Under the pieces are notes generated by a model. It saw only the letters and a list, made by a program, of their open reading frames with translations, searched no databases and had not been told where the DNA came from. Below are positions 9,898 to 28,767 of a stretch of DNA of 50,114 nt, one piece after another. The stretch covers positions 1 through 50,114 of the forward strand of contig JAKEEG010000002.1 of NCBI GenBank assembly GCA_022616555.1, read 5' to 3'. Every line of letters begins with the position of its first letter. The first letter of the stretch is position 1. The stretch comes from Ignavibacteriota bacterium. Lineage in GTDB: Bacteria > Bacteroidota > Ignavibacteria > UBA10030. A program made the position numbers and the translations under genes.

Positions 9898-10311
9898 TTA
9901 CAGTTTTTGTAGTGCAGAATAGTTAATCCTGAGCGCATCGCCCTTCCGCAGTTGTTGCTGGATATCGGTCACAACACCCATCTTAGCCCCTTCGTCGATA
10001 CGCAACGACATGATGACGTTGGGGATTTCCTGCCGCTTGCGCGCTGCGATCTGTTGAATTTCCGGGATGAGGACAATATTATCGTCAATCTGCACACGCT
10101 CGTCCCGTCCCACCCAGATGTACGACGTCAACCGTTTGTTGTCGATTTTCTCTAGCTGTTTCGCCGACGGAAGCTGGTACGACACTTTTACGTCGTACTC
10201 GCGGAGAACAGTCGCCACCATGAAGAACATCAGAAGCATAAAAATGATGTCCGGCATGGAAGACGTTGGGATATTCTGTTTCGTCGAAGCTTGTTTCTTT
10301 TTGAACTTCAT
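9898..10311 (-). CDS. ExbD/TolR family biopolymer transport protein (second copy)
   Basis: Partner of the ExbB/TolQ proton channel; together they drive TonB- or Tol-linked work across the envelope. The 137-residue protein has a short cytoplasmic head rich in lysine and then a single membrane helix at about residues 20-40. That helix contains SMPDIIFMLL, where the aspartate is the proton-carrying residue of the family. A periplasmic domain follows. It is the last gene of a three-gene operon after ExbB and a longer ExbD, and is followed by a clear terminator. Two different ExbD proteins with one ExbB are common in Bacteroidota. Neither TonB nor TolA is adjacent. Confidence 0.9.
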   Translation of the reverse strand: MKFKKKQASTKQNIPTSSMPDIIFMLLMFFMVATVLREYDVKVSYQLPSAKQLEKIDNKRLTSYIWVGRDERVQIDDNIVLIPEIQQIAARKRQEIPNVIMSLRIDEGAKMGVVTDIQQQLRKGDALRINYSALQKL

Positions 10312-10331
10312 GTTCTCGTCCTGGAGTCTGG

Positions 10332-10835
10332 TTACCGTTGTTCTGGTTCCGCAATGGAAATCTTCTGCGGGACTTTGTCGCGTACATCCGCCAGTTGCTC
10401 TTTCGTTAACTGGTTCAACGTCGTATTGAACGTCTTCAGCGAATACTCCTCACGGAGGTCCTGGTACGCCTGCTTGATCTCGTCCAGCGTAGAAATATAA
10501 ATCCGATACGGGGTCTGTCTATCTACTTTAACAGAGATGATGAGCTTTTCGTTCTCCCGTACTTTATTCTTCACAATTTCGTGGATCTCCGAAACCGAGG
10601 TTAGTTCGTCATCCAGCAACACTTCACCGGAGGCGTTGACGAGAACCTTTAACAAGTTCTCCGTCTTGACCTTCACTTGCTGCGTCTCGTCGGGAGGCGG
10701 AGGCAATACCAACCCAATGCCCGTATCGACGTCGATTGTTGTCGTCACGAGGAAGAAGAGCAACAGGAGGAATGTGATGTCCGCCATGGAGCTCGTCGGG
10801 ATTTCGGGTTCTTGTTTATTTCGTTTTTTCAGCAT
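10332..10835 (-). CDS. ExbD/TolR family biopolymer transport protein (first copy)
   Basis: Same family as the next gene but longer (167 residues). The helix near residues 18-36 carries SMADITFLLLLFF, with the conserved proton-pathway aspartate. It is followed by a proline-rich linker (LPPPPDE) and a periplasmic domain of the ExbD fold. The C-terminal 40 residues are an extension that the shorter copy lacks. It lies 24 bases after ExbB and 20 bases before the second ExbD, so the three are one transcript. Which receptor complex they energise is not shown; the TonB-dependent receptor at 12523 is the nearest candidate. Confidence 0.9.
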   Translation of the reverse strand: MLKKRNKQEPEIPTSSMADITFLLLLFFLVTTTIDVDTGIGLVLPPPPDETQQVKVKTENLLKVLVNASGEVLLDDELTSVSEIHEIVKNKVRENEKLIISVKVDRQTPYRIYISTLDEIKQAYQDLREEYSLKTFNTTLNQLTKEQLADVRDKVPQKISIAEPEQR

Positions 10836-11678: not shown

Positions 11679-12374
11679 TTAAACTCCTGCAAATGCCCTA
11701 ATAGTTGTGCCGTTAACCTTCCCTCCTGCTTCAGCACAGAGCGTATAAATAATGTCGGCAATTTCTTCCGGCTTTACCCATTTGGATGTATCTTCATTGG
11801 GCATGGATTCTACGTTCTCCTTCGTAAAAATAATGCTTGGGGCTATCGCATTAACGGTAATACCGGTTCCCTTGTGTTCTTCACCGGCTATTTCGGTTAA
11901 GAGAACGACTCCTGCTTTAGATATAGTGTAGGCGCTCTTGCCTGCAGATGGCTTTAGCGCCGTCATTGCCGCAATGCTGATAACCCTGCCATATGCCTGC
12001 CCCTTCATCTTTCGCAAAGCTTCACGCATGCAAAGAAAGGTGGTCCGAAGGTTGAGCGTCATGAGCTTGTCCCAATCGGAGACACTGGTATTTGAGACCG
12101 GCTTTCCCGGTATAAACCCACCGACGGTATTCACGAGAATATCGAGTTTCCCAAAGCTTTTCACGACATCGTCAAACAACCTGACGACATCTTCCTCCAG
12201 GGAAACATTTGCCTGAATGAATTTGAGGGATGGATGCGTCGCCGGCAGCTTCTCTTTATCGCTGAAATACGTGGCGGCAACTTTAGCGCCTTCCTTGAGA
12301 AGCCGCTGAACAACTACGGAACCGAGCGCTCCGGCACCACCGGTAACCAAGGCGACTTTATTGTTGAGGGACAT
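11679..12374 (-). CDS. Short-chain dehydrogenase/reductase
   Basis: NAD(P)-dependent oxidoreductase of the classical SDR family, 231 residues. It has the N-terminal cofactor motif TGGAGALG (residues 11-18), the structural NTVG (in place of the more usual NNAG), a catalytic-region serine in the SIAAM segment, and the YTISK motif (Y-x-x-x-K). It resembles 3-oxoacyl-ACP reductase-like enzymes, but the substrate cannot be read from the sequence. It stands between the ExbB operon and the TonB-dependent receptor with over 100 bases on either side, so it is probably transcribed alone. The ATG has no ribosome site. Confidence 0.85.
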   Translation of the reverse strand: MSLNNKVALVTGGAGALGSVVVQRLLKEGAKVAATYFSDKEKLPATHPSLKFIQANVSLEEDVVRLFDDVVKSFGKLDILVNTVGGFIPGKPVSNTSVSDWDKLMTLNLRTTFLCMREALRKMKGQAYGRVISIAAMTALKPSAGKSAYTISKAGVVLLTEIAGEEHKGTGITVNAIAPSIIFTKENVESMPNEDTSKWVKPEEIADIIYTLCAEAGGKVNGTTIRAFAGV

Positions 12375-12522: not shown

Positions 12523-14733
12523 TTAATTCACGATGTCAAACGGGATTCCTACCTTCAGCGTGATGTTCCTTCCCGCGTTGAGAGCGTACGCCTTATACCT
12601 GCTGAGATGGCTTCGATATTCCGTATCGAGAAGATTCTCTACTCCGGCATCGAGGGAAATACGTTTGCTCCCAAGCGCGAGCGCGCCACCGAAGCCAATA
12701 TCGACAAGTGTATAACCGCCTGTCGGCAGCTCATAATCTTCGATACGATCTTGTTTCATCACTGCACGTACGTCAATGGAAAAATACGGGTCGAGAATTG
12801 GGCCCATCTCCGATGTGAGTAAGCGTGCACCTGCTTTGAAACGCGAGGCTGGAACCAGGGGCAAGGGCTTGCCGGTAGTTTCATTTTCACCTTGGACATA
12901 ATCAAACCCTCCCTTCAACACAAGCCAGTTTGCTACCTGAGCCTGAAGAGAAATTTCCGTACCGATCAATGTCGCATCGGCTTGTTTGATAAGATAGATT
13001 TCGTAGCCAGAAACAAGGTCGAATGTTCCAGTAGGGCTTATGTAGATGTACTTGTTGATTGCGTTCCGGAATACCGTCACCTCGGCCTGCATCCTGTTGG
13101 TAATGTAACGGTATGATAGGTCAATATTTAATGAGCTTTCGGTGGAAAGTGCATTGTCGCCGACCAGATACTGCACAGTCCCTTCGTGCACACCGTCAAC
13201 AAACAGCTCAAAGGGTGTCGGGGCTCTCCATCCGCGTCCCACATTCGCTGAAAGCGAAGATTGCTCCGAGAGACGCAACACACCGCCTATTGTTCCACTC
13301 AACGCTCCGTAGTTTAGTGTTTGTTCAGCAACTCCGAGGTCGCTTTCTGCTTCGACATTGACCTCGCGGGTATCATAGCGCACTCCGAGCGAGAGGTTAA
13401 AATTCCCGATTATCATCTCTTCGTAGAGAAACCCTGCGAGATTGAGAAAATCGTACCCGGGGATAAGCTTCTCTTCGGCAAGTGATTCATTCTTTTGAGA
13501 CATCAGAGAAAATCCGATTGTCCCAAAGATATTCCCGATCGGAGAATGATGACCCTTGATATCCAGGGAGAGTGTGCTCAATTTGAGATGAAGAGCTTCT
13601 GCTGGCGCGTTCTTCTCTTCGAACTCTCGCCGGTTATTCTGCTGCCAGCTGCCGTCGAGTTCGAAACGCAACACACTGGTCGGAAAGTCTCCATGCAAAT
13701 GTACTTTCTCATGTTCAGTCCTCAGGAACGGAGTTGCTGTGGGATCCTCTGCGGGGTCTTCGTGAATTTGAGTTTCCTGATGAAATCGAGAGTAGTCGAT
13801 CGAGAAATGTCCCCACGGACCTTCGGCGCCCAATTGTCCGCCGCCGTTGAGCTCCTCGATGCCACTATTGAAAAGAGTGCCCGCAGGCGTAGTGACATCT
13901 CCCGACTTACGTGAGCTGATATATCCGCGATAGCCAATCGGCCCGCCTGTACCGAACAAAGAAAACGAACCCGCCATTTGATCGTTGTTCGTGAAGCCGT
14001 TAAGGGCCAGCTCGCCGCCCAGTTTCGGCGCACCTTTATCAGCATCGGGTAATTCGTGCTTAATGATGTTGACGACGCCACCGAGGGCATCTGAACCGTA
14101 GAGCACGCTGCTTGGGCCGCGTACTACTTCAACTCTCTCGACGTCAAATGCGTCAATCTCGGGCCCGTGTTCATCTCCCCACTGCTGGCCTTCCTGTCGA
14201 GTGCCGTCAGCAACTATCAGCACGCGCTGAGAAGTTAAACCTCGAATTACCGGTTTTGCAATTCCCGAGCCTGTGGAGTACGTGGAAACGCCCGGAGTGT
14301 TGGCAATCGTTTGCATGATGCTCTCCCCCCGCAACCTCAGTAATTCTTTCCCTTCGATTGCAGTTACGGACTGTGAAGAAGAAAGTGCATCGGTAGGTTG
14401 CGGAGTTGCTGTCACGATAACCCCGGGAACTTCAATTGAAGTAACATAGAGGGTGACTGCAATCTCGACGTCGTCATCTACCGTAACGATCCGTGTCTCT
14501 TTTTTATACCCAACAAGGCTAAACTCAAGAATATAGACACCAAGTCGCAAACCTTGAATGACAAACCTGCCGTCTTCATCAGTCACCGCTCCTCGATGCT
14601 CGGCGGGCAAAGAAACATTGACCAACTGTAGCGGCCTGTTTTGTTCATCAACGACACGTCCTGAAATTTCTTCAGCCAGAACACCGGATACACCGAACAA
14701 AACGCTAAAGAATAATAAAACAATTTTTTGCAT
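12523..14733 (-). CDS. TonB-dependent outer-membrane receptor, possibly for a metal
   Basis: Outer-membrane gated beta-barrel for uptake powered by TonB-ExbB-ExbD. From the ATG at 14731-14733 (736 residues) it has a signal peptide (about 1-20), a CarboxypepD_reg-like domain (about 21-100, ISGRVVDEQNRPL), and a plug with the IRGLTSQRVLIVADG and VERVEVVRGPSSVLYGSDA motifs. A 22-strand-type barrel follows, ending with a family-typical aromatic-rich C-terminus. His- and acid-rich loop segments such as HEDPAEDP and HEKVHLHGDF recall ZnuD-like zinc receptors, which suggests metal uptake; this is an inference. GGAGG five bases before the ATG favours this start over the in-frame GTG at 14745. A long inverted repeat with Fur-like hexamers lies just upstream. 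Confidence 0.9.
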   Translation of the reverse strand: MQKIVLLFFSVLFGVSGVLAEEISGRVVDEQNRPLQLVNVSLPAEHRGAVTDEDGRFVIQGLRLGVYILEFSLVGYKKETRIVTVDDDVEIAVTLYVTSIEVPGVIVTATPQPTDALSSSQSVTAIEGKELLRLRGESIMQTIANTPGVSTYSTGSGIAKPVIRGLTSQRVLIVADGTRQEGQQWGDEHGPEIDAFDVERVEVVRGPSSVLYGSDALGGVVNIIKHELPDADKGAPKLGGELALNGFTNNDQMAGSFSLFGTGGPIGYRGYISSRKSGDVTTPAGTLFNSGIEELNGGGQLGAEGPWGHFSIDYSRFHQETQIHEDPAEDPTATPFLRTEHEKVHLHGDFPTSVLRFELDGSWQQNNRREFEEKNAPAEALHLKLSTLSLDIKGHHSPIGNIFGTIGFSLMSQKNESLAEEKLIPGYDFLNLAGFLYEEMIIGNFNLSLGVRYDTREVNVEAESDLGVAEQTLNYGALSGTIGGVLRLSEQSSLSANVGRGWRAPTPFELFVDGVHEGTVQYLVGDNALSTESSLNIDLSYRYITNRMQAEVTVFRNAINKYIYISPTGTFDLVSGYEIYLIKQADATLIGTEISLQAQVANWLVLKGGFDYVQGENETTGKPLPLVPASRFKAGARLLTSEMGPILDPYFSIDVRAVMKQDRIEDYELPTGGYTLVDIGFGGALALGSKRISLDAGVENLLDTEYRSHLSRYKAYALNAGRNITLKVGIPFDIVN

Positions 14734-14762
14734 GACCTCCTCCACTTAAACTATGAAGTTAA

Positions 14763-14797
14763 ATCATTCTCGGAATCATTATCGTTCCGAGAGTGAT
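14763..14797 (-). promoter_or_regulatory. Long inverted repeat with Fur-like hexamers before the receptor gene
   Basis: Arms of 13 bases (ATCATTCTCGGAA and TTCCGAGAGTGAT) pair with one mismatch around a 9-base centre. On the minus strand, bases 14783-14763 read as hexamers GATAAT-GATTCC-GAGAAT-GAT, resembling the GATAAT repeats of Fur-type operators. It lies about 30 bases before the receptor start and just after the stop of the small secreted protein gene. It could be an operator for a Fur/Zur-type regulator, or an RNA hairpin that lowers read-through. Confidence 0.5.
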
Positions 14798-14819
14798 CGT
14801 AGTTAGTGTACGGGAACAG

Positions 14820-15167
14820 CTAGGAGATCCGCGGGGGTCCGCGTTTTGATTCGTTGAGAAGAGAGGGTGCGCTGAGGCCGTCCTGTGAATCGTTCAATAC
14901 GACAAACTCGAACGAGATATTCAGGCGAAACGAATCCGGCGCCAACGCGTGAGAAAGGCCTAGAACGCGGCAGCTCTGGACGCAGTGAAAACGCACGTCC
15001 AGTGGTTTGTGTTGCTCTTTATCCTGGCAATCGTGACTTTGAAACGATGTGGTAGAATTAAACTCGGCGGAGACGAAATGTGAATGCCCGATATCCGCAA
15101 ATGCGAATCCGCTCAGGAACAAGACAAGGCTTAGCACAGAAAGATATTTTCGGACTCGGTCACTCAT
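14820..15167 (-). CDS. Small secreted His/Cys-containing protein next to the receptor
   Basis: I do not recognise a family. From the ATG at 15165-15167 (115 residues) it has a clear signal peptide (about 1-24, ending SGFAFA) followed by a mature part with GHSHF, SHDCQDKEQH and RFHCVQSCRV. These three clusters of His and Cys look like metal ligands. The C-terminus is basic and proline-rich. It stops 87 bases before the TonB-dependent receptor start and faces the peroxiredoxin gene divergently. Small metal-binding-looking periplasmic or lipid-free proteins are often next to metal receptors, so a role in binding or sensing Zn or Cu is plausible. The longer in-frame start at 15251 has no signal-peptide logic. 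Confidence 0.7.
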   Translation of the reverse strand: MSDRVRKYLSVLSLVLFLSGFAFADIGHSHFVSAEFNSTTSFQSHDCQDKEQHKPLDVRFHCVQSCRVLGLSHALAPDSFRLNISFEFVVLNDSQDGLSAPSLLNESKRGPPRIS

Positions 15168-15273
15168 TGTTGTACGAATATAGCGAACACCCACGCGAGA
15201 TGCAATGAAGCATTTTGTCGGTCTCGGTGCTTGGAACTGTGCATAGAACACCCATGTTAGACCGTTAAGTTCC

Positions 15274-15330: not shown

Positions 15331-15876
15331 ATGAAAACTTTAGCCATTTTCTGCATTCTTTTGTGTACAGGAGGTATGCTTATGGCACAATCAGCCGCAC
15401 CCGCCGAACTGGAAATCGGACAACCAGCGCCGGCATTCGAGCTCAGGTACGCAACGAAGGAAGCCATCTCTCGCGAGCCGCTGAAGCTCTCAGACTTCCT
15501 CGGCAAGCGAAACGTGGTGCTTGCCTTCTACCCCGCCGATTGGAGCTCCGGCTGCACGAAGGAAGTCTGTACCATGCGAGACGATTTCGGAAATCTCGAC
15601 AAGCTAAATGCGGAAATCCTTGCCATCAGCGGGGACTATGTATATTCTCATTTCGAATGGGCAAAACATCACGATCTGCCGTTCAAGTTGCTCAGCGACC
15701 ATTTGCACGACATCGCAAAGGCATACAATAGCTATAATCCTGATTCGGGAATGAACAAGCGCACGATGTTTGTCGTCGATAAGGAAGGTAAGCTCGCGTA
15801 TATCGACCTGCAATATAGCGTTGGTGACGACGCGGACTTTAACCGACTCAAAGAGGCGTTGGAAAAATTACAATAA
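15331..15876 (+). CDS. Secreted peroxiredoxin of the AhpC/TSA family
   Basis: Thiol peroxidase predicted to act outside the cytoplasm. The 181-residue protein has a signal peptide (about 1-20, ending MLMA) and then a thioredoxin-fold domain starting at IGQPAPAFEL. The active site is in PADWSSGCTKEVCTMRDDF, with the peroxidatic cysteine followed five residues later by a likely resolving cysteine, as in PrxQ/Bcp enzymes. GGAGGAG before the ATG is a good ribosome site. Its TAA touches the ATG of the next gene directly, so it is the first gene of a long operon (15331-21858). A second, cytoplasmic Bcp-type enzyme is at 24834-25292. Confidence 0.9.
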   Translation: MKTLAIFCILLCTGGMLMAQSAAPAELEIGQPAPAFELRYATKEAISREPLKLSDFLGKRNVVLAFYPADWSSGCTKEVCTMRDDFGNLDKLNAEILAISGDYVYSHFEWAKHHDLPFKLLSDHLHDIAKAYNSYNPDSGMNKRTMFVVDKEGKLAYIDLQYSVGDDADFNRLKEALEKLQ

Positions 15877-17967
15877 ATGAATCTCCTTTCCAAAGAGCAA
15901 AGCGCCTATCTCCGTTCTGCTGCCCATCAACCGGTACACTGGAATCCGTGGAGCCCAGAAGCATTCGAACGCGCTCGGAAAGAAAACAAACCGGTGTTGT
16001 TGGATATCGGCGCCGTATGGTGCCACTGGTGCCACGTGATGGACATGGAAAGCTATGAGAACGAATCGATAGCGAAGTTGATCAACGAGCGGTACGTCGC
16101 CATAAAAGTCGATCGCGATGAGCGTCCCGATGTCGACGCACGCTACCAAGCTGCTGTAAGCGCCATCAGCGGACAGGGCGGATGGCCTTTGACGGCATTC
16201 CTCATGCCTGACGGTAAAGTATTTTATGGCGGGACGTACTTCCCACCCGAAGACCGCCACGGGCGCGCGGGATTTCCAAAAGTACTAACGGTCATCTCCG
16301 ACACATATCAAAAGGAACCCGAGAAAGCAACCCAAAACGCGGAAGAAATCGACCGCGTGGTGAAGAGCTATCTCAACCGAGAAAGCGAGCAAACTGAACT
16401 CAGTGACAACCTGATCGACGCTGCTCTCAATAGCATCTCTCGCGAACATGACGTCCGGTACGGCGGCTTCGGCGGCGCTCCGAAGTTCCCGCATCCGTCG
16501 GCAATTGAGCTTCTTCTCTCCCGCTATGATAAAACTCGGGAACAATGGATGATCGATGCTGTTGCAAAAACTTTGCGCGCCATGGCTAACGGTGGAGTGT
16601 ACGACCAGCTCGGCGGCGGTTTTCATCGCTACAGCACGGATGAAAAGTGGATTGTTCCTCATTTCGAAAAAATGCTGTACGATAATGCTCCCCTGTTGAA
16701 AAACTATACACACGCGTTCCAAGCTACCGGTGATATTTTTTACAAGGATGTTGCACTTGATATAATCCGTTATATCGATGGGGTGCTTTCAGACCGAGAG
16801 AGCGGTGGGTTTTACGCCAGCCAGGATGCCGATGTCAGCTTTGGAGACGATGGCTCGTATTTCACGTGGACACTCGATGATGCGGGAAAGATTCTCTCCG
16901 CGGATGAATTGGATGTCCTGAAGCTCCGCTACAATATTTACGAGCAGGGCGAGATGCACCACGATCCGACGCAGAACGTTCTCTTTGTAGACCATGCCGA
17001 CGACCAAATCGCCGAGATTACCCGTAAGCCTATAGACGAGGTACGCAGGCTTTTAGACAGCGGCGAAACAAAAATGCAGAAAGCGAGAGAGCAACGGAAG
17101 CCTCCCTTTGTCGATACAACGATTTATGCAAGCTGGAACGGGATGATGATTTCAGCGTACTTGCACGCATATCGCGCATTTGGGCAAAACGAGCATCGTT
17201 CGTTTGCTTTGAAGTCGCTGCAGCGGATTCTCACCGACCACAAAACCAATGATGGTTTGATTTCTCATCGTTTAGCGGTATTGTCCCCAGAGGCTTTCCT
17301 TGATGACCAGGTGGAGATTCTTCAAGCACTATTGGATGCTTTTGAGATAACAAGTGAGCAACAATACTTAGAAAAAGCTGAATCACTGGCTCAATCAACA
17401 ATGAAGTACTTCTGGGATACAGAAGAGGGAGGATTTACCGATATTCCGGTAACCGCCAACGCAATAGGCGCTCTGCAAATTAAGAACAAGCCGATACAAG
17501 ATTCCCCAACTGCGGGCGCCAACGCGGTTGCGATTATTGCTTTACTCAGGCTTCATACCCTAACTGAAAAACCGGAATACCAGAAAACCGCAGAACTCGC
17601 ACTTCAGTATTTTGCAGGAACAGTAAAAAATCACGGTATCTTCGCTGCAACATATTTCAGCGCATTGGACATGTTCCTCAATCCCCCACCGCACATCGTG
17701 GTAGTTTCTCCCAAAAAGGACCCAACTGGGGAAGCTTTATTTCATTCTGCTTTATTAGCAGCATACAAACCGAACGCTATCATCTCGTGGGTCGATCCGA
17801 ACGAATCTTCTCATGTCTCTCCCGCGGTCAGAGGGATGATTCAGTCGTATAGCAAGCCGGCTGCGTATGTGTGTTCGAACTTTGTATGTTCCGCGCCAGC
17901 GTACGATGCTCAGTCATTAGCGAAAGCGCTCTATGAATTCAATCCTAAAGCAGAGGCAATACAATGA
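15877..17967 (+). CDS. DUF255 thioredoxin-domain protein (YyaL / SPATA20 family)
   Basis: Member of a widespread family with a thioredoxin-like N-terminus and a six-hairpin glycosidase-like helical barrel; its reaction is not established. The N-terminal domain (to about residue 160) has the family's WSPEAFERARKENKPVLLDIG opening and a CHWCH motif (about residues 49-53). It then has QGGWPLTAFLMPDG and GGTYFPP. The rest (about 170-696) carries the barrel with signature pieces such as FGGAPKFPHP, GGGFHRYSTDEKW and VPHFEKMLYDNA. Full length at 696 residues. It directly abuts the peroxiredoxin gene and overlaps the next gene by four bases (ATGA). The pairing with a peroxiredoxin hints at redox work, but that is inference. 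Confidence 0.93.
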   Translation: MNLLSKEQSAYLRSAAHQPVHWNPWSPEAFERARKENKPVLLDIGAVWCHWCHVMDMESYENESIAKLINERYVAIKVDRDERPDVDARYQAAVSAISGQGGWPLTAFLMPDGKVFYGGTYFPPEDRHGRAGFPKVLTVISDTYQKEPEKATQNAEEIDRVVKSYLNRESEQTELSDNLIDAALNSISREHDVRYGGFGGAPKFPHPSAIELLLSRYDKTREQWMIDAVAKTLRAMANGGVYDQLGGGFHRYSTDEKWIVPHFEKMLYDNAPLLKNYTHAFQATGDIFYKDVALDIIRYIDGVLSDRESGGFYASQDADVSFGDDGSYFTWTLDDAGKILSADELDVLKLRYNIYEQGEMHHDPTQNVLFVDHADDQIAEITRKPIDEVRRLLDSGETKMQKAREQRKPPFVDTTIYASWNGMMISAYLHAYRAFGQNEHRSFALKSLQRILTDHKTNDGLISHRLAVLSPEAFLDDQVEILQALLDAFEITSEQQYLEKAESLAQSTMKYFWDTEEGGFTDIPVTANAIGALQIKNKPIQDSPTAGANAVAIIALLRLHTLTEKPEYQKTAELALQYFAGTVKNHGIFAATYFSALDMFLNPPPHIVVVSPKKDPTGEALFHSALLAAYKPNAIISWVDPNESSHVSPAVRGMIQSYSKPAAYVCSNFVCSAPAYDAQSLAKALYEFNPKAEAIQ

Positions 17968-28299: not shown

Positions 28300-28767
28300 T
28301 TACTTTTCTTTATGATTGGAGACCTTAATGCGAAATGTCTCCTTCGTGGTCGAAAGAACTACGCTGGTGGTGGTTTTCACCACCCCCTGCCACGTTTGAA
28401 TTTTTGCAAGCAACTTTTCCAGGCTTCCCGTGTTGTCCGTCCTGACTTTCAACACGTGCGTGCCCTCGCCTGTAATTGCGTGGCACTCTAGAATTTCGTC
28501 CGTTGAATTCACATGGTCTGTGAACGACGCAAAATGTTTGGAAGAATCCACCGTCGTAATCACAATCGCCGTAATATCTTTGCCGAGCTGTTTGTGGTCG
28601 ACCTTGGCAAAATAACCCGAAATAATGCTTGCTTCCTCTAACTTGCGGAGTCGTTCACTCACGGCGGGCAGAGAAAGCCCGACCTTTTCAGCAAGGTCAT
28701 TGCGGCGGGTCCTGCCCTGTTTTTGCAGGATATCTAGTATTTTTACATCTATTTCGTCGAGGGTCAT
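28300..28767 (-). CDS. Lrp/AsnC family transcriptional regulator
   Basis: 155-residue DNA-binding protein. It has an N-terminal winged helix (about 1-60, [30 protein letters not shown]) and a C-terminal RAM/ligand domain with the family's [16 protein letters not shown] stretch. Its placement 47 bases ahead of glnA, on the same strand, suggests it controls nitrogen or amino-acid metabolism and that it regulates itself and glnA from one promoter. Its own promoter region holds two direct repeats and a perfect palindrome (28807-28849). The effector amino acid cannot be read from the sequence. Confidence 0.9.

Follow-up and report, generated by a model that had tools for sequence, protein, structure and literature searches.

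Our analysis suggests that a small gene in a 50,114-nt stretch of an Ignavibacteriota genome (contig JAKEEG010000002.1, positions 1 to 50,114; the window in the following) is probably a zinc-responsive arrest-peptide leader ORF (uORF), which would control the translation of a downstream zinc importer by unmasking its ribosome binding site. We also lean, less firmly, towards the wider view that a zinc-sensing arrest-peptide family may be the standard post-transcriptional zinc-import switch of the whole Ignavibacteria-type order, with a cargo that is swapped between an outer-membrane protein (OMP)/ZnuABC unit and a ZnuD-like receptor, and with arrest-site codons that double as an anti-Shine-Dalgarno. 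The original prediction had seen in the same region a secreted metal-binding protein, a metal-type receptor and a Fur-like operator; it overlooked the C-terminal RGPP of the small protein and the fact that the inverted repeat lies within the transcript, where it separates the two genes. The coordinates of the features are compiled in Table 1.

Table 1. Positions and strands of the features in the window, in order of position.
Feature	Position	Strand	Remark
Short-chain dehydrogenase gene	11679..12374	(-)	similar same-strand gene follows in 13/53 loci
TonB-dependent receptor, ZnuD-like	12523..14733	(-)	start probably ATG 14733; in-frame GTG also at 14745
Receptor Shine-Dalgarno region GTGGAGGAGG	14736..14745	(-)	predicted to be sequestered
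Inverted repeat, 35 nt	14763..14797	(-)	RNA hairpin between uORF and receptor
Leader ORF (uORF)	14820..15167	(-)	115 aa; N-terminus signal-like, then Cys/His module, RGPP-RIS at the end
Anti-Shine-Dalgarno GATCTCCT at uORF end	14822..14829	(-)	pairs with receptor Shine-Dalgarno in predicted fold
RGPP codons CGC GGA CCC CCG	14832..14843	(-)	predicted ribosome arrest site, from motif conservation
Putative metal-binding module, residues 28-66	14970..15086	(-)	from 20-member alignment
Divergent AhpC/TSA peroxiredoxin gene	15331..15876	(+)	same place in 19/53 loci (synteny anchor)

The uORF starts with the ATG at 15167 and ends with the stop codon at 14822-14820, and its frame stays open further upstream, up to a GTG at 15251. 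The HSH, CQDKEQH and FHCVQSC motifs and the signal-like N-terminus are present just as had been described. The protein ends in SKRGPPRIS, with three residues after RGPP, and 42 residues lie between the second Cys of the Cys pair and the Arg of this motif. In a 20-member alignment, H28, C47, H53, C62, R109, P111 and P112 are invariant, most other positions vary, and the linker between the Cys pair and the arrest motif is unconserved in sequence and varies freely; most members have a CxxC, and the window member has a CxxxC, with C66 in place of the usual C65. More distant members do not always retain C47 and H53, which is evidence against the reading that we prefer. The AlphaFold model of the small protein is mostly disordered (pLDDT 61), the N-terminal helix is its sole confident part, and it contains no confident folded metal site.

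A profile search detected homologues in 53 of the 98 genomes of the order (E<=0.01), and at least 8 genomes matched when a profile search was run over 296 genomes spread across the phylum, with no more than 15 candidates scored per genome among the results listed. The search with the single sequence gave matches in 33 of 61 genomes, the own genome included, at E<=1 (21 of these at E<=0.01), and a scan with the one protein, limited to close relatives, yielded a single relative, in the Ignavibacteriae MAG PMZI01000055.1 (locus L056). There were 54 order-wide profile matches, two of which (G374 and G376) are partial, without the C-terminal part, and were left out; the 53 members examined are the window, standing for genome G000, the 51 other order-wide matches, and G177, which was added from the phylum search. 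Of these 53 members, 52 carry an R(G/A)PP motif (48 RGPP, 4 RAPP) at 1-7 residues before their C-terminal end, and the distance from the second Cys of the pair to the Arg of the motif is 42-44 residues in 51 of 52. As the profile includes the RGPP columns, loci whose BLAST match ends early are a less biased check, and R(G/A)PP is present in all nine loci whose match ends before residue 92 among the matches listed (20 of 40); of the further matches that end early, three were retrieved, two with the motif (L082 of G027, and L092 on contig C42 of G009) and one without it (L084 of G010). The motif does not occur once in the 90,841 residues of 199 downstream ORFs of at least 250 aa. Members of the family combine what we would expect of an arrest-peptide uORF of the RAPP type (CruR-like), namely an R(A/G)PP that lies no more than about 10 residues before the stop codon, a Cys metal motif at a fixed spacing before it and, in 52 of the 53 loci, a same-strand metal-related gene directly downstream. 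Membership in DUF2946 (PF11162) was considered and rejected, since the window protein has no match to it at E<=1; DUF2946 was detected in none of 41 related genomes, and among 14 controls only Caulobacter matched. L084 has the appearance of a decaying copy, with an in-frame stop ahead of the arrest motif and a shortened OMP, and no ZnuA was found between this OMP and ZnuC.

The genes behind the leader point to zinc import. Wherever downstream sequence is available (52 loci), the leader is followed by a gene of an outer-membrane type, which in L095 and L108 comes second, after a short ORF. By tblastn with representatives, 38 of the 53 loci carry an unnamed OMP type, which was assigned to the outer membrane by eye and in which four subtypes are pooled, and 14 carry a TonB receptor; one locus is cut off at the contig end. 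OMP, ZnuA and ZnuB follow each other in 32 of the 38 OMP loci, three have the OMP and one of the two, and three the OMP alone, all three of them cut short by the contig. Pfam confirms two ZnuA proteins (PF01297) and two permeases (ABC-3), as well as TonB receptor domains in 8 of the 14 TonB proteins (window, L085, L086, L089, L092, L095, L100 and L108), and gave no match for the three OMP members tested. The OMP family that precedes ZnuA is a candidate zinc porin. In L057, L062, L065 and L066 its members have about 375-475 aa, several of them with His close to the C-terminal end.

In the window, L068 and L074, the TonB receptor replaces the OMP-ZnuA-ZnuB unit amid flanking genes that are common to other loci, namely the divergent peroxiredoxin, ExbB and the short-chain dehydrogenase, the last one in the window and L068; loci with the short-chain dehydrogenase include OMP-ZnuA-ZnuB versions, and the gene serves as a second synteny anchor. 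ZnuA was not detected in the genomes of these three loci (completeness 98, 72 and 99%, respectively). It is present in 8 of the 16 genomes searched, including four in which the leader precedes TonB cargo (G004, G024, G043 and G177), and the replacement is therefore not universal; G009 carries both kinds of cargo. A ZIP transporter gene is found in the genome of the window and in all seven relatives searched. As side observations from the surroundings of the unit, two ExbD genes come after ExbB downstream of the receptor (9898-10835, minus strand), which may be a source of energy for the receptor, and a DsbH/DUF255 thioredoxin-fold gene comes after the divergent peroxiredoxin (together 15331-17967), possibly a redox link.

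The receptor of the window has the expected plug and barrel domains (Pfam), and its best PDB match is ZnuD (2.6e-22). The zinc ligands described for ZnuD of Neisseria, Asp99, His100, Glu340 and His499 (PMC4557270), align with E192, H193, E377 and H520 of the receptor, numbered from the GTG at 14745, so that the ligand set is kept with one Asp-to-Glu change. The receptors of L068 and L089 also keep all four positions, and that of L074 keeps three and has, in place of E340, a Lys flanked by Glu. The His-rich loops that had been ascribed to the receptor were not borne out, as 14 of its 740 residues are His (1.9%), mildly clustered at one place, 328-351; in this, and in the leader ORF that precedes it, the receptor differs from ZnuD, for which a His-rich loop 3 is described (PMC4557270). 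The NCBIfam ZnuD model scores the receptor with 145.9 bits, below its 950-bit cut-off, and a haem receptor model scores it above the ZnuD model, likewise below cut-off. A second TonB type occurs under the leader family (L085, L092-L094, L097 and L100), and the five proteins that could be aligned (L085, L092-L094 and L100; L097 is too short) lack the ZnuD ligand residues, so that zinc is not arguable from the receptor at those loci, which also counts against our preferred reading. From the synteny with ZnuA and ZnuB in the family and from the ZnuD ligand positions in the receptor, we infer that the unit of the window takes up metal; the idea of a metal-uptake unit thereby gains support, with zinc as the metal, and the receptor is probably a zinc-uptake receptor.

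The ZnuA-like proteins bear on the ligand as well. Four His and one Glu are invariant in 22 aligned sequences, which were chosen by a text pattern, and three of the four His sit at the usual zinc-ligand positions. The best PDB match is a zinc-uptake ZnuA, and manganese and iron carriers, which the family PF01297 also takes in, are among the further matches. An arrest-peptide leader that responds to another ligand (Cu, Mn or Fe/haem), or to secretion itself as SecM does, would agree with these carriers, with the scores of the haem-receptor model and with the copper sensing of the nearest characterised relative in mechanism, but we regard it as unlikely in view of the invariant ligand residues, the zinc ZnuA as best match and the ZnuD ligand set that is kept in the receptor of the window.

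The 35-base inverted repeat of the original prediction is real. Its arms (14763-14775 and 14785-14797) have 13 nt each, are 92% complementary and enclose a 9-nt loop; only one in 3000 dinucleotide shuffles of the 86-nt gap matched it, and two other places in the 50-kb window have an inverted repeat by the same criterion. As the repeat lies between the uORF stop and the receptor start, it belongs to the leader RNA and not to a promoter operator. The reading as a Fur-like operator finds no support: the repeat is part of the predicted fold that hides the receptor ribosome binding site, it is neither located at a promoter nor common to other metal genes, and a genome search gave a single perfect copy and 16 sites with up to three mismatches, compared with 9 in the reversed control. 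In the upstream region of the small gene itself, neither the Fur nor the Zur box is matched better than in shuffles, and a Fur/Zur operator was rejected on the grounds of position, single copy and this lack of a site. The best Fur-box match in the gap is 13/19 and is reached by 2.5% of the shuffles, scored against the E. coli consensus. We consider it very unlikely that the repeat acts as a DNA operator of the receptor, in addition to and apart from the control by the leader; a near-perfect 35-nt dyad with GATAAT and the one FUR-family gene of the genome could be cited in its favor, but there is only the one perfect copy, and the gaps of L068 and L074, which have the same cargo, contain nothing similar by eye. 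An intrinsic terminator at the repeat was also rejected, as the terminator scan lists none there. A repeat-like 25-mer occurs twice on contig C31 of G000, at 28461 and 96842 in opposite orientation, and perhaps represents a duplicated element.

A mature, secreted protein that binds zinc and brings it to the receptor, with a Fur/Zur operator in control, would account for the signal-like N-terminus and the metal-type motifs, and it could appeal to the Fur-box resemblance in the gap, but against it are a strict C-terminal R(G/A)PP at a fixed, tunnel-scale spacing behind a freely varying linker, the predicted disorder of most of the protein, and a repeat that lies between the genes and was not found as a regulon motif, and we judge it to be very improbable. 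For a delivery of metal to the receptor we found no evidence; the most constrained parts of the protein are the arrest motif and the fixed spacing of the Cys pair. Sensing of metal is plausible, but for the nascent chain on the ribosome rather than for the mature protein at the receptor.

How the leader could act on the receptor is suggested by the RNA fold. The leader of the window folds better than all of 200 shuffles (z -3.55), and in the predicted structure, the end of the uORF, GATCTCCT, is paired with AGGAGGTC at the start of the receptor, while the inverted repeat forms a stem between the two. The maximum pair probability of GATCTCCT with the Shine-Dalgarno is at least 0.95 in 14 of 18 fold settings and 0.23-0.46 in the other four, in which another segment of the uORF pairs instead according to the printed structure. 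An arrested ribosome covers about 16 nt downstream of the P site, and with the P site at P111 it would just cover GATCTCCT. This zone pairs with the Shine-Dalgarno more than synonymous codon choice would give, with an average of 0.65 compared with 0.34 in synonymous controls over 48 loci (p=1.2e-7, a value that is indicative only, as are all p-values for pairing, since the loci are related to each other), and 0.32 compared with 0.10 with a narrower definition of pairing. The pairing tests used 48 of 51 loci, the others being L059, whose start the script did not resolve, and L075 and L085, with gaps of more than 130 nt. The first Pro codon of the motif is CCT in 23 of 51 loci, compared with 16% in the background. 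There is thus a codon-level bias toward Shine-Dalgarno pairing across the family. The window alone has a pairing of 0.95, and its synonymous controls average 0.57, but 12% of these controls reach 0.95, and the difference is not significant. When the covered part is removed in the window, the Shine-Dalgarno is still partly paired, and across the loci, its pairing falls by little when the covered zone is taken away, from 0.79 to 0.71 (p=0.02); 16 of the 48 loci are at or below a pairing of 0.5, and only 13 rank within the top 5% of the respective controls.

The modest release of the Shine-Dalgarno on masking and the 16 loci with little pairing would be explained if the arrest-peptide leader acted by keeping Rho off the message, the hairpin being incidental or a pause site, and CruR of Bordetella is described to work through Rho (PMC9426467). 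This mode of output is a possibility that we hold to be doubtful, as it would leave the family-wide codon bias and the excess of CCT at the first Pro without explanation, and as most of the gaps are short (39-165 nt for loci with a start that was set, apart from L059) in comparison with 162 nt in CruR. We infer that unmasking, rather than Rho anti-termination, would be the output step.

The proposed switch builds on features that can be read from the DNA, namely the ORF, the R(G/A)PP with its fixed spacing, the operon position, the zinc-importer-type cargo, the ZnuD ligand positions and the bias in codon use towards Shine-Dalgarno pairing. When zinc is short, the ribosome would stall with the two prolines of RGPP in the P and A sites, it would thereby cover the uORF end GATCTCCT that is otherwise paired with the receptor Shine-Dalgarno, and the receptor would be translated. 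When zinc is available, it would bind to the Cys/His module, which ends some 42 residues before the stall site and would have reached or passed the tunnel exit; zinc-driven folding would then pull on the chain and release the stall, the ribosome would finish, and the Shine-Dalgarno would be hidden again. Zinc binding and folding as the release step are plausible by analogy, as the folding of a zinc finger on the ribosome is reported to release the SecM arrest in vitro, at a shorter distance of 24-26 residues (PMC4571824), and as the relief of the CruR stall is reported not to involve the signal peptide (PMC9426467).

The mechanism class as such is already known. RAPP and RGPP are reported to arrest ribosomes in vitro, and a survey found small exported proteins with a near-C-terminal RAPP or RGPP, almost all with a predicted signal sequence, to be over-represented upstream of TonB receptor genes across Gram-negatives, which agrees with the position of the uORF in the window (PMC12992588). 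The main text of this survey names copper and never uses the word zinc, and we found neither ZnuA/ZnuB cargo nor Shine-Dalgarno pairing described there (PMC12992588). The closest case is CruR of Bordetella pertussis, likewise a small exported protein with a Cys-pair metal motif (CXXC) some 45 residues before RAPP, encoded before a TonB transporter that it regulates according to copper, and its arrest is described to be released on copper (PMC9426467). Unlike CruR, the family of the window is not detectable as DUF2946, has extra conserved His and Cys residues and mostly RGPP, heads zinc-type importers and shows the bias for Shine-Dalgarno pairing. The CutF-CutO leader of Rhodobacter, as described, shares the exported nascent protein with a Cys motif and Pro-rich end and the stem-loop that hides the Shine-Dalgarno of the next gene, but CutF turns on copper detoxification with copper, whereas the leader of the window precedes an importer and would be expected to be on at low metal (PMC9973294). 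SecM-secA is alike in its C-terminal Arg-Pro arrest motif and in a stalling that opens a stem-loop before the next gene (PMC9973294); unlike the leader of the window, SecM senses secretion and not metal. New are, therefore, the zinc-type cargo, the distinct Cys/His family, its order-wide use, the exchange of cargo and the pairing of arrest-end codons with the Shine-Dalgarno.

In a search that covered the main texts of open papers, we found no report of a zinc-responsive bacterial arrest peptide. The CruR authors state that no riboswitch was described for copper or zinc, and they suggest that this absence may explain the protein-based post-transcriptional control of copper (PMC9426467). A zinc version, in which arrest motif, sensor spacing, cargo and target site can all be read from sequence, would be a testable second case, and it would widen the metal-sensing arrest peptides beyond copper and DUF2946. 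The leader could also serve as a tag to find unknown zinc outer-membrane proteins, for example, the unnamed family before ZnuA.

If the leader controls zinc import, one would also expect a leader at those ZnuA operons where the profile had detected none, and this prediction was put to a test. Of the 45 genomes that the profile did not match, 24 were searched for ZnuA; 18 have it and 6 have none. Nineteen upstream stretches were taken, from 15 of the 18 ZnuA genomes (G012, G022 and G013 were left out, with ZnuA genes located right at contig starts) and from G024, G043 (two stretches) and G177; L110 is too short, which leaves 18 usable stretches. An OMP homologue precedes ZnuA in 17 of them, L128 being the exception, and in all 17 a small ORF that ends in R/H-(A/G)PP lies ahead of the OMP (11 RAPP, 2 RGPP and 4 HAPP). 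Sixteen of these leaders were found by script, and L114, with nine residues after RAPP and thus one beyond the limit, was added by eye; the frames of L123 and L126 that end in xPP were not counted, as they are not R/H-(A/G)PP. The spacing from CxxC to the motif is 43-48 residues in the 16 leaders in which it was measured. HAPP is among the arrest-like motifs considered in an earlier study (PMC10987492), and it stands in place of RAPP or RGPP before one OMP subtype (L115, L119, L121 and L125) and in a second leader of L093. In the locus without OMP, L128 of G177, a leader ORF is missing as well, and a FUR-family gene (PF01475) lies beside ZnuA. Zinc control of importers is usually credited to the repressor Zur, and, going by this one case, the leader and a Zur-type repressor may be alternatives to each other.
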